Of a stretch of 64,000 nucleotides of DNA, positions 23,278-27,491 are shown piece by piece. The notes beneath the pieces are model-generated. The model was not told the origin of the DNA and made no database searches. It saw only the letters and a list, made by a program, of their open reading frames with translations. The stretch comes from Sulfurospirillum deleyianum DSM 6946 (lineage in GTDB: Bacteria; Campylobacterota; Campylobacteria; Campylobacterales; Sulfurospirillaceae), in assembly GCF_000024885.1 (NCBI RefSeq), contig NC_013512.1, positions 1,736,001 through 1,800,000 of the forward strand, written 5' to 3'. Each line of letters begins with the position of its first letter. Position 1 is the stretch's first letter. The position numbers and the translations under genes were made by a program.

Positions 23278-23493
23278 ATGCAATTTTTCCGCACCTTCTT
23301 TAGCCTCTACAAAGAGGGTTTTGCCAACCTTAGACTGGGAAAGACGTTGTGGAAAATTGTTCTTTTAAAACTGCTGATTATGCTGGTCGTGTTTAAGTTT
23401 TTCTTCTTTAACACGACCCTTCACTCCCACTTTTTAGACGACTCAGCTCGTAGTAATTATGTATTAGACAATCTCATAAAGGAGACACCATGA
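23278..23493 (+). CDS. DUF4492 small membrane protein upstream of cydA
   Basis: 71 residues with one hydrophobic helix (IVLLKLLIMLVVFKFFFF, about 27-44) preceded by the amphipathic FFSLYKEGFANLRLGKTLW. This is the DUF4492 family, found next to cydAB in Campylobacterota and Bacteroidetes. Its stop overlaps the cydA ATG (ATGA), so it is probably an accessory or assembly factor of the oxidase. Confidence 0.82.
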   Translation: MQFFRTFFSLYKEGFANLRLGKTLWKIVLLKLLIMLVVFKFFFFNTTLHSHFLDDSARSNYVLDNLIKETP

Positions 23494-25019
23494 ACGAACT
23501 CTCTTCGGTCGATTGGAGCAGAGCCCAGTTTGCGCTCACTGCCATCTACCATTTTCTCTTTGTTCCCCTCACATTGGGGCTTAGCTTTATCATCGCCATA
23601 ATGGAAACACTCTATGTAAAAACAGGCGATGTACGTTGGAAAAAAATCACCCAATTTTGGATGAGCCTTTTTGCGATCAATTTTGCAATTGGTGTCGCAA
23701 CAGGGCTTATTATGGAGTTTGAATTTGGAACCAACTGGGCGAATTATTCGTGGTTTGTTGGTGATATTTTTGGTGCACCTCTTGCCATTGAAGGTCTTTT
23801 AGCCTTTTTTATGGAATCCACCTTCTTTGCCGTGATGTTCTTTGGTTGGAACAAGGTGACGCCTAAATTCCATCTGCTTTCCACATGGTTGGTTGCCATT
23901 GGTTCAAACCTCTCCGCTTTTTGGATTTTGGTCGCCAATGGTTGGATGCAATACCCCATCGGGATGTATTTTAACCCCTCCACCGCCCGTAATGAAATGT
24001 CAAACTTTTTCGATGTCATACTCTCCCCTGTTGCCATTTCAAAATTTCTACACACCGTCTCAAGCGGGTATGTCATCGGCGCACTTTTTGTCATTGGTAT
24101 CTCTTCGTGGTTTTTACTCAAACAAAAAGAGGTACTTTTAGCCAAACGCAGTATCGTCGTAGGCGCTACTTTTGGTCTTTTAACCTCGCTTTTCCTCACC
24201 CTAAGCGGTGATGAGAGTGCCTATCAGGTGGCACAACACCAACCTGTCAAACTCGCTGCCATGGAAGGGCTCTATAAAGGTGAATCCAGAGCGGGTATTA
24301 TTGCTTTTGGTATTTTAAATCCCAACAAGCAACTAGGCGATAAAGAGCCTGAACTCTTAGGCGATATCGAACTTCCCTACATGCTCTCCTTATTAGGTCA
24401 CCGTGATGTCGATGCCTTTGTACCAGGCTTAGAGGATTTGGTCTATGGCAATCCTGCCCATAACATTACGCCCGCTAGTGAACGTATCGCCAATGGCAAA
24501 ATAGCCCTTCAAGCCTTAAGTGACTTTAGGGAAGCAAAAAAGATGGGCGATGCAGGAAAAATGAAAGAGAATGAAGCCATTTTACAAACCTATATGAAAG
24601 ATTTTGGTTATGGTTATTTTGAGAAACCTGAGCAAATCGTACCACCCATTGCGCTCTCTTTTTACAGTTTTCACATCATGGTCTCTTTGGGCATGTGGTT
24701 TATCGCACTCTTTGCGCTCACCCTCTTTTTTACGCTTAAACGAGATATTGTACGTTATCCGCTTTTATTGAACTCTGCGTTGTGGAGCATTCCTTTAGGC
24801 TACATCGCTGCTGAGGCAGGGTGGATTGTGGCAGAAGTAGGCAGACAACCGTGGGCGATTCAAGACTTGATGCCAACGCACATCGCAGCAACGCATTTAG
24901 GCGGAGGCAATATCGCCCTCTCCTTTACCCTTTTTGCCATTTTATTTACGGTGCTCTTAATTGCGGAGATCAAAATTATGCTGAGGCAAATTGCCAAAGG
25001 CTTTGAGGGAGGTCACTGA
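23490..25019 (+). CDS. cydA: Cytochrome bd-type ubiquinol oxidase subunit I
   Basis: 509 residues with nine expected membrane helices. The N-terminal RAQFALTAIYHFLFVPLTLG carries the haem-ligand His. The GRQPW signature (AEVGRQPWAIQ) lies near residue 447, and the quinol-binding Q-loop (about 250-330) includes YKGESRAG. Reduces oxygen with quinol electrons. C. jejuni's equivalent (CioA) is cyanide-insensitive and non-canonical in its haems, which cannot be told from sequence alone. AAGGAGACACC precedes the ATG. Confidence 0.93.
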   Translation: MNELSSVDWSRAQFALTAIYHFLFVPLTLGLSFIIAIMETLYVKTGDVRWKKITQFWMSLFAINFAIGVATGLIMEFEFGTNWANYSWFVGDIFGAPLAIEGLLAFFMESTFFAVMFFGWNKVTPKFHLLSTWLVAIGSNLSAFWILVANGWMQYPIGMYFNPSTARNEMSNFFDVILSPVAISKFLHTVSSGYVIGALFVIGISSWFLLKQKEVLLAKRSIVVGATFGLLTSLFLTLSGDESAYQVAQHQPVKLAAMEGLYKGESRAGIIAFGILNPNKQLGDKEPELLGDIELPYMLSLLGHRDVDAFVPGLEDLVYGNPAHNITPASERIANGKIALQALSDFREAKKMGDAGKMKENEAILQTYMKDFGYGYFEKPEQIVPPIALSFYSFHIMVSLGMWFIALFALTLFFTLKRDIVRYPLLLNSALWSIPLGYIAAEAGWIVAEVGRQPWAIQDLMPTHIAATHLGGGNIALSFTLFAILFTVLLIAEIKIMLRQIAKGFEGGH

Positions 25020-26149
25020 TGTTTGAATTACTCTCTTTTTTACAACTTCAACAGTTGTGGTGGATGATTGTCAGTCTGCTTGCGGGGCTTTTTGTCTTTT
25101 TGATGTTCATTCAAGGCGGACAAAGTCTGCTCTTTAGTTTGCCTGAAAATGAAGTAGAAAAAAGTATGCTGATTAACTCTTTAGGACGAAAGTGGGAACT
25201 GGGTTTTACCACGCTTGTTCTTTTTGGTGGAGCGCTCTTTGCCGCATTTCCTCTTTTTTATGCGACCAGTTTTGGTGGAGCGTATTGGGTGTGGCTTGCT
25301 ATTTTGTTTTGTTTTATTATTCAAGCGGTAAGCTACGAATACCGCAAAAAAGAGAACAACTTTTTGGGGCAAAAAACCTATGAAATGTTCTTGTACATTA
25401 ACGGCTCATTGGGTGTCATTTTACTCGGTGTGGCGCTAAGTACCCTTTTTAGTGGAGCTTCGTTTCATTTAGATGAAAATTTCTTTGTGCAATGGGATAG
25501 CAACCTTCGAGGTCTTGAAGCGCTTTTTGTCCCCCAAAATTACCTTTTAGCCTTTGCACTTTTCTTTTTAGCACGTCTTAGTGCAGGGCTTTATTTTCTT
25601 AGCAACATCAACCATGCCTCTTTACATGTAAGAATTCAAAAAATGCTTTTGAAAAATACCCTGCTCTTTTTGCCTTTCTTTCTAGGGTTTTTGGCATGGA
25701 TTTTTCTCAAAGAGGGGTTTACCTACGATGCTTCGGGAGTGGTGAGTATTGAAGCGTACAAATACCTTAAAAACCTTCTTGCCTTACCTGTGGTCGCTGT
25801 GATGATTCTTTTAGGGGTGGTCTTGGTGTTGGTAGCGCTTTATCTAGGCATTTTTAAAGCCAGTGTTCATGGTATCAAAGTGATGGGAAGTGGCATTGTT
25901 CTTGTGGTCATGGGTATTTTCTTGCTTTTAGGGTTTAATCAAACAGCGTTTTACCCTTCCATCAGTGCACTGCAAAGCTCACTCACCATTGAAAACTCAA
26001 GCGGAAGTCACTATACATTAACCACCATGAGTTATGTAGCACTTATTATCCCTTTCGTACTCGCCTACATCAGCTATGCGTGGTATGCAATGGATAAAAA
26101 AGATATTGATGAAGCAGAGATAAAAGATGCTTCAGAACATCACTATTAG
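25019..26149 (+). CDS. cydB: Cytochrome bd-type ubiquinol oxidase subunit II
   Basis: 376 residues, about eight to nine membrane helices, beginning LQLQQLWWMIVSLLAGLFVFLMFIQGG, the usual CydB opening with the F.QGGQ motif. The ATG overlaps the cydA stop. TTACATGTAA at 25622 encodes Leu-His-Val. It forms the structural partner of CydA. Confidence 0.92.
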   Translation: MFELLSFLQLQQLWWMIVSLLAGLFVFLMFIQGGQSLLFSLPENEVEKSMLINSLGRKWELGFTTLVLFGGALFAAFPLFYATSFGGAYWVWLAILFCFIIQAVSYEYRKKENNFLGQKTYEMFLYINGSLGVILLGVALSTLFSGASFHLDENFFVQWDSNLRGLEALFVPQNYLLAFALFFLARLSAGLYFLSNINHASLHVRIQKMLLKNTLLFLPFFLGFLAWIFLKEGFTYDASGVVSIEAYKYLKNLLALPVVAVMILLGVVLVLVALYLGIFKASVHGIKVMGSGIVLVVMGIFLLLGFNQTAFYPSISALQSSLTIENSSGSHYTLTTMSYVALIIPFVLAYISYAWYAMDKKDIDEAEIKDASEHHY

Positions 26150-26158
26150 GGGATTTTT

Positions 26159-26260
26159 ATGGATTATACAACATCATTTGTCTGGCTTTTATGCTGGCCT
26201 GTACTTATTTATGCAACGTACCGCTTGATTCTTTTTACCGTTAAAAAGTTAGAAGCATAA
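26159..26260 (+). CDS. 33-residue membrane microprotein after cydB, CioY-like
   Basis: ATG at 26159, 9 bases after the cydB stop, with an AGGGG site upstream; 33 codons to TAA. The product has one hydrophobic helix (about residues 7-27, SFVWLLCWPVLIYATY) ending in a lysine-rich tail. Position and size match CioY, a 34-residue component of the CioAB oxidase reported in C. jejuni, and functionally resemble CydX of E. coli. Homology is judged from size, place and topology only. Confidence 0.7.
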   Translation: MDYTTSFVWLLCWPVLIYATYRLILFTVKKLEA

Positions 26261-26267
26261 TCATCTT

Positions 26268-26286
26268 GAGGCAGTTTAACTGCCTC
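26268..26286 (+). terminator. Terminator of the cyd operon
   Basis: GAGGCAG (26268-26274) and CTGCCTC (26280-26286) form a 7-bp stem with a 5-base loop, followed by a T-rich stretch. An exact TTACATGTAA follows at 26295-26304 in the same gap. Confidence 0.75.
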
Positions 26287-26318: not shown

Positions 26319-27491
26319 TCACAGTTCTATTTTAACTCTATTTCGACCCTCTTTTTTGGCAAGATACATTGCTTTATCAGCACGTGAAATAATATTTTCA
26401 ATCGTCGTGTCATAATTTAAAAAGGTGCTCATTCCAAAACTCATGGTCACAGATATGCACGCACTGGGATGATGAGGAAGGGAGATTTTCAACGCTTCTA
26501 CCATGCGTCTTAAACGCTCAGCAATAATATACCCTCGTTTTGCAGAGGTATTAAAAAGAAGCAACGCAAACTCTTCTCCACCAAATCTTACCAAACAATC
26601 ATTGTCTCTCACATAATGCTTCATTCGATTCGCCAAAGCGATTAAAACCTCATCACCAACTAAATGCCCATACGTATCATTCACTTTTTTGAAAAAATCT
26701 ATATCCATCATGATCATACAACTCGAAAGGCGATGCGTTTTATAAAGAGTCATTTTCTCTTCCAACCATCTTTCAAAAACCCTTCGATTAGAGACGTTGG
26801 TTAAAGGATCAATTTGATTTAACAATCGCAATTCATCGCTCTCTTCCACTAAGAGATGATGTTTCCGTAACAATCGAACAAGATAAGCCATCGCCACCCC
26901 TAAGCTCACAAGCCCACATATCCAAAAGAAACCATAAATCCACAAAGAGTATTGTGCTCGTTTTTGAGCAATTTCATCGTAATTTTCCAACGAAAGAGAA
27001 ACACTAATGCCCCCTTTTACATCACCCTTGTGCATTTCATGGTGGCATTTGAGACAACTCTCATCCACCACTAAAGCACCCATAAAACGTAGATGCTCCT
27101 TCCCTTCGTATGGGTTAAAATCGTACACTTCATGTTGGTTGGCACTTAATTTTGCTAAGGCCTCTTTTTCCCATGCATCAGGAGGATTGGGTAAGTTTTC
27201 TAAGCGATGCAAATGAATCAAACGTCCTTGTAATCCTCCTTTGGAGCCAAAAGAATCTTCATTGACATGATCAACAATTTCTGTGGGGTTCACAAAAGTA
27301 AATGCCTCATGAGAGGCGTTGGTATCGGTGGAACGGATATAGATACCTCCTTGTTGGGATATCCAACGATACAAACGTAAATCTTTTTGAAAAACAGACC
27401 GTGCTTGAGAGAGGGCTAACTCTTCTATAAATTTTTTCTCTCGCCTAGAATCTAAGACATAAAAAAGAAAAACAGCACAGGTTAATACCAT
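26319..27491 (-). CDS. Diguanylate cyclase with Tll0287-like (DUF3365) haem-binding sensor domain
   Basis: 390 residues. The periplasmic part (about 20-190) contains CLKCHHEMHKGDVKGGISVS, a c-type haem CxxCH motif in a Tll0287/DUF3365-like sensor. A membrane helix (IYGFFWICGLVSLGVAMAYL) leads to a GGDEF domain with an RFGGEEFALLLF active loop, so cyclic-di-GMP synthesis is expected. The annotated ATG leaves only half of the first membrane helix: in-frame codons upstream (to 27536) continue the hydrophobic segment but contain no ATG, GTG or TTG. The real start may be a rare ATT or ATC codon. Confidence 0.83.
   Translation of the reverse strand: MVLTCAVFLFYVLDSRREKKFIEELALSQARSVFQKDLRLYRWISQQGGIYIRSTDTNASHEAFTFVNPTEIVDHVNEDSFGSKGGLQGRLIHLHRLENLPNPPDAWEKEALAKLSANQHEVYDFNPYEGKEHLRFMGALVVDESCLKCHHEMHKGDVKGGISVSLSLENYDEIAQKRAQYSLWIYGFFWICGLVSLGVAMAYLVRLLRKHHLLVEESDELRLLNQIDPLTNVSNRRVFERWLEEKMTLYKTHRLSSCMIMMDIDFFKKVNDTYGHLVGDEVLIALANRMKHYVRDNDCLVRFGGEEFALLLFNTSAKRGYIIAERLRRMVEALKISLPHHPSACISVTMSFGMSTFLNYDTTIENIISRADKAMYLAKKEGRNRVKIEL

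Follow-up and report, generated by a model that had tools for sequence, protein, structure and literature searches.

A small CydY/CioY-type membrane protein encoded behind cydB in Sulfurospirillum deleyianum, most likely a subunit of the cytochrome bd oxidase

In Sulfurospirillum deleyianum DSM 6946 the genes for cytochrome bd oxidase are followed by an open reading frame of 33 codons, which raises the question of whether so short a stretch is a gene and, if it is, what its product does for the oxidase. The window, i.e., the whole stretch of 64,000 nucleotides that was analysed (NC_013512.1, positions 1,736,001 to 1,800,000), carries the unit in the order DUF4492(cydW)-cydA-cydB-cioY with a hairpin at its end (Table 1). 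The gene for DUF4492 overlaps the start of cydA by 4 nt, and cioY follows the stop codon of cydB after 9 nt and in the same orientation. The cioY product (MDYTTSFVWLLCWPVLIYATYRLILFTVKKLEA, 33 aa, stop codon TAA) consists of a single hydrophobic helix, within which W13, P14, and Y21 are located, and the basic tail VKKLEA. A hairpin after the cioY stop was found in the window and in each of the six relatives examined within the genus (7 of 7 loci), its stem sequence being altered in the two more distant ones. The helix, the basic tail and the position ahead of a terminator, as given in a preliminary description of the locus, are all present.

Table 1. Features of the cyd unit in the window, with positions counted from the first nucleotide of the window.
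Feature	Position	Strand	Basis
DUF4492 small membrane protein, CydW-like, 71 aa	23278..23493	+	PF14899 85.8 bits, cut-off 27
cydA, cytochrome bd subunit I, 509 aa, long Q-loop type	23490..25019	+	PF01654 E 4.5e-164
cydB, cytochrome bd subunit II, 376 aa	25019..26149	+	PF02322 E 9.2e-64; TIGR00203 127 bits, cut-off 117.3
Shine-Dalgarno-like AGGGGA ahead of the cioY ATG	26148..26153	+	by eye
cioY/cydY, 33-aa single-helix membrane protein	26159..26260	+	leave-genus-out profile, dN/dS, CydB coupling
Intrinsic terminator-like hairpin and T run, end of unit	26268..26286	+	sequence; recurs in genus loci

For comparison 200 genomes of the phylum, each at least 90% complete, were sampled. CydB was above the cut-off in 84 of them, and examination of all 84 cydB loci revealed a cioY ORF near cydB in 81, usually after a gap of 9–10 nt. 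A Shine-Dalgarno-like 4-mer was present within 16 nt upstream of cioY in 80 of the 81 loci. A profile built without the genus of the window, when searched against the whole genome (one contig of 2,306,351 bases, approximately 2.3 Mb), matched the cioY of the window with an E value of 4.7e-9, the next match having an E value of 6.44. Ten pairs among the five closest loci gave dN/dS values of 0.14–0.66 for cioY and of 0.04–0.08 for cydB, and pooled values for cioY in three other groups were 0.12 (19 sequences), 0.15 (9), and 0.15 (5). cioY is a gene; it is kept by purifying selection and evolves faster than cydB, and the observation made in the preliminary description is confirmed. We give next to no credence to the view that cioY is an ORF that arose by chance in an untranslated end of the unit, as might be supposed from its shortness and its absence from Pfam and NCBIfam; this is contradicted by the purifying selection, the profile match and the synteny. 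In the 57 CydB loci where no CioY was called, a small hydrophobic ORF follows cydB in only 6, and one of these six is a borderline CioY. The cioY of the window is in frame with cydB, a single stop (TAG) separating the two, so that the cioY codons might be taken for a C-terminal extension of CydB made by readthrough. The distance to cydB is, however, not a multiple of three in 30 of the 81 loci, which together with the Shine-Dalgarno-like motifs makes readthrough exceedingly improbable.

The preliminary description had likened the protein to CioY of Campylobacter jejuni. This reading is right in substance, yet the family had already been described: CydY was predicted behind cydB, with a ribosome-binding site, in operons with a long Q-loop and without cydX (Allen, 2014; PMC4325964). 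In the accessible portion of that paper CydY comes from Epsilon- and Deltaproteobacteria, with Campylobacter concisus among the species shown, and a C. concisus locus (L126) is within the loci analysed here. The window protein is likewise a small hydrophobic protein encoded behind cydB, with a ribosome-binding site, a CydA with a long Q-loop and no cydX; CydY was a prediction in that paper, whereas the family is here also seen in a few records from Bacteroidota and Chlorobiota. More recently CydY was renamed CioY in Campylobacter, and the C. jejuni protein, with conserved W, P, and Y, was reported to be translated, to co-precipitate reciprocally with CioA and to form a predicted CydX-like complex (PMC11955535, 2025), in agreement with its mention as an oxidase component in the preliminary description. 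C. jejuni CioY and the window protein have the position behind cydB, the single helix and the conserved W, P, and Y in common; the former has 34 aa and binds CioA, whereas the latter has 33 aa, comes from a free-living relative and is known from its sequence. In an alignment of 63 distinct family sequences, which includes 34-aa relatives (group f11g23), the W is invariant and a Y and an F are nearly so; across the 81 loci the W is followed by P in 63 and by Y at W+8 in 79. The profile built from other genera, the position, the long Q-loop without cydX and the W-P...Y residues all point to membership in CydY/CioY, so that a CioY-like identity appears well supported and the window CioY is a known kind of protein in a new species. 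The protein has no Pfam match, and neither Pfam nor NCBIfam has a model for the family (63 distinct members checked), which is therefore probably unannotated in many genomes.

Within the phylum cioY is tightly coupled to cydB. The CioY profile (E <= 5.2e-10) matched 82 of the 84 genomes with CydB vs. none of the 116 without it, and both the CioY-positive and the DUF4492-positive genomes are nested within the CydB-positive set. The profile contains most of the counted sequences by construction, and the independent tests of the family are the leave-genus-out search and the copy in one genome (G175) that is outside the profile, which was matched with E 5.8e-16. Among the genomes without CydB five have matches to the profile, only between 1e-3 and 1e-2. 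Similarly, all 18 matches at E < 1e-3 in a single-protein search of 41 genomes are directly behind cydB. The two misses differ in kind: in G114 cydB is broken and DUF4492 is also absent, whereas in G125 the genes are intact and no convincing CioY was found beside cydB, and CioY is therefore not indispensable everywhere. In G175 (L096) cioY is located 463 nt behind cydB, with an apparently non-coding spacer of 460 nt and a Shine-Dalgarno-like site of its own, which suggests that it can be retained when uncoupled from cydB translation.

The unit has neighbours on both sides in the window. Upstream, a gene for DUF6858 (PF21651, 22874-23263) ends 14 nt ahead of the DUF4492 gene; in another genome (G126, L111) a relative of it is found just behind cioY, i.e., in a different placement. 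DUF6858 is present in 38 of the 200 genomes, 19 of which are among the 84 with CydB (by-eye count), and in six genomes it is no more than about 2.5 kb from the cyd genes (by eye); because of these counts the link between DUF6858 and cyd is regarded as partial. Downstream, a convergent ORF of 390 aa (26319-27491, minus strand), with a GGDEF-like GGEEF and a possible haem c site, CLKCH (both by eye), terminates 59 nt past the cioY stop. It lies next to the hairpin, which may therefore serve both genes.

Beyond the phylum the presence of CioY follows the lineage of CydA. The window CydA could be aligned over its full length with the E. coli subunit (6rko_A, E 9.7e-130), including what we take to be the Q-loop region, and it retains GRQPW as well as H21, H188, and M397, which are presumably the ligands. 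The best 80 of 591 CydA candidates from named genomes by similarity, a non-random set with many metagenome-assembled records, included 23 with CioY over the cut-off behind cydB and two more borderline cases; 8 of the 23 are from Campylobacterota and 15 from elsewhere (going by record titles, 9 Bacteroidota, 2 Chlorobiota, 3 of Desulfobacterota type, and 1 unclassified). CioY-type genes after cydB in a small number of records from Bacteroidota and Chlorobiota are newly found here. DUF4492 was found in 77 of the same best 80, the misses being L133, L180, and L166, the last with just 188 nt of upstream sequence. On a CydA tree of 140 rows, in which L153 and L168 (matches with E ~0.01 directly behind cydB) and L096 (cioY found separately) were labelled by hand as having CioY, its presence requires 4 changes vs. 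a mean of 43.5 after shuffling. CioY is absent from all 51 rows of one group, nearly all Bacteroidota, and present in 85 of the remaining 89, the deepest split of the tree being weakly supported (76). Gut and oral Bacteroidota have related CydAB and DUF4492 without CioY, and this type of oxidase can therefore work without it. The absence from the Bacteroidota group agrees with the description of Porphyromonas gingivalis as having no cydY (PMC4668044). Of 148 genomes sampled from the phylum assigned to G226, a CioY carrier whose record is titled Bacteroidales, 63 had CydB over the cut-off, one had DUF4492 and one CioY, G226 itself, so that the two small proteins do not accompany every CydB, and outside Campylobacterota CioY appears to be rare.

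Lysine and arginine residues are more numerous after the helix than before it in 80 of the 81 CioY loci, with one tie, and the predicted topology is therefore N-out/C-in. A longer form of 70 aa was found in all six loci of one group (f16; L094, L100, L105-L108), where the CydA is more distant (about 47–51% to the window CydA). Here a signal-peptide-like stretch that ends in LFA-S or similar is followed by approximately 20 polar residues and then the W-P helix. Judged by eye this start may be cleaved, and if so the orientation is likewise N-out.

With the gene, its family, its coupling to a CydA lineage and its predicted topology in place, it is most likely that CioY is a small subunit of cytochrome bd oxidase. 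We are highly confident that the window protein is a CydY/CioY orthologue which closes the DUF4492(cydW)-cydA-cydB-cioY unit and that it spans the inner membrane once, its N-terminus facing outward and its basic C-terminal end lying in the cytoplasm. Its helix would most likely pack on CydA at the position that CydX has in E. coli; such binding in S. deleyianum is proposed by analogy. By the same analogy CioY would probably stabilise CydA together with the haem site, which is the role of CydX, and would have no catalysis of its own. It is also conceivable, but improbable, that CioY acts only in assembly or as a chaperone of insertion and is not retained in the finished oxidase: CioY is missing from some otherwise similar oxidases and we know of no deletion phenotype for any CioY, but its presence tracks the CydA lineage, and CydX and CydS, which are of similar size, are structural. 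The co-precipitation of CioY with CioA in C. jejuni (PMC11955535) also argues for a structural subunit.

Whether CioY is related to CydX by descent is a separate matter. E. coli CydX and AppX resemble the window CioY in position, size, the single helix and a W-x3-W at the helix start, but the sequence match is not significant. Alignment of the CioY family with hhalign gave a score of 15.98 and a probability of only 4.8% with CydX (full shuffles attained this score in 1 case of 200, region-wise shuffles in 6 of 200), and 17.78 and 13.2% with AppX (3 of 200 and 5 of 200, respectively). The weak alignment pairs W2/W6 of CydX with W9/W13 of CioY, and 18 of the 81 loci, from 13 genus groups, have a W four residues ahead of the W-P motif. 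The CydX family (PF08173) was not among the Pfam families matched by any of the 63 CioY members, and a profile search of the PDB with CioY at E up to 10 returned no CydX, CydS or CydH chain, only unrelated weak matches. The resemblance is suggestive of either a shared interface or a remote kinship, homology being unproven. That CioY shares descent with CydX/AppX and has diverged very strongly, rather than having arisen independently, is possible in view of its place after cydB and of scores that shuffles seldom reach, but we consider it rather unlikely, as the alignment probabilities are low, the PDB and Pfam searches returned no CydX and the first W is missing from most of the 81 loci.

The preliminary description had also proposed DUF4492 as a second small protein of the oxidase, and its coupling proved equally tight (83 of the 84 genomes with CydB vs. 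0 of 116 without). The gene is at most 121 nt from cydA in 82 of 83 loci, the exception (G076) being about 1.6 kb away, and Y, G, F, G, L, W, and K are invariant in 42 sequences, a conservation higher than that of CioY. A profile search of the PDB with DUF4492 gave one weak unrelated match only. A nameless hydrophobic protein is described upstream of cydAB in every long-Q-loop operon without cydX (Allen, 2014; PMC4325964), and in P. gingivalis the upstream protein was named CydW and shown to be co-transcribed (PMC4668044, 2015). CydW and the DUF4492 protein of the window are both small membrane proteins encoded ahead of cydA, of 82 and 71 aa, respectively. The name DUF4492 is not used for CydW in the accessible portion of that paper, and a limited literature search did not find the equation in print; one frame of the cydW primer given in the P. 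gingivalis paper, when translated by eye, encodes GKTLWA, which fits the DUF4492 core GK-x-LW, and DUF4492 is therefore likened to CydW and almost certainly the same protein. From its coupling and conservation, DUF4492 is probably a second small subunit.

In bd oxidases, small subunits influence both the stability of the haem and the access of oxygen, and they are easily overlooked in annotation. It is tempting to speculate that the oxidases studied here form a distinct long-Q-loop class, cydWABY, in which two small stoichiometric subunits, CydW and CioY, do the work of CydX and CydH in E. coli, DUF4492 having gone unnoticed as a structural subunit throughout the lineage; we regard this as a little less likely than not. 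If it is true, DUF4492/CydW would be old and shared with the Bacteroidota, and CioY would belong to a single lineage of CydA. Since both small genes are coupled almost perfectly to one such lineage, a structure of a bd oxidase from Campylobacterota is predicted to contain two extra helices in addition to CydA and CydB.
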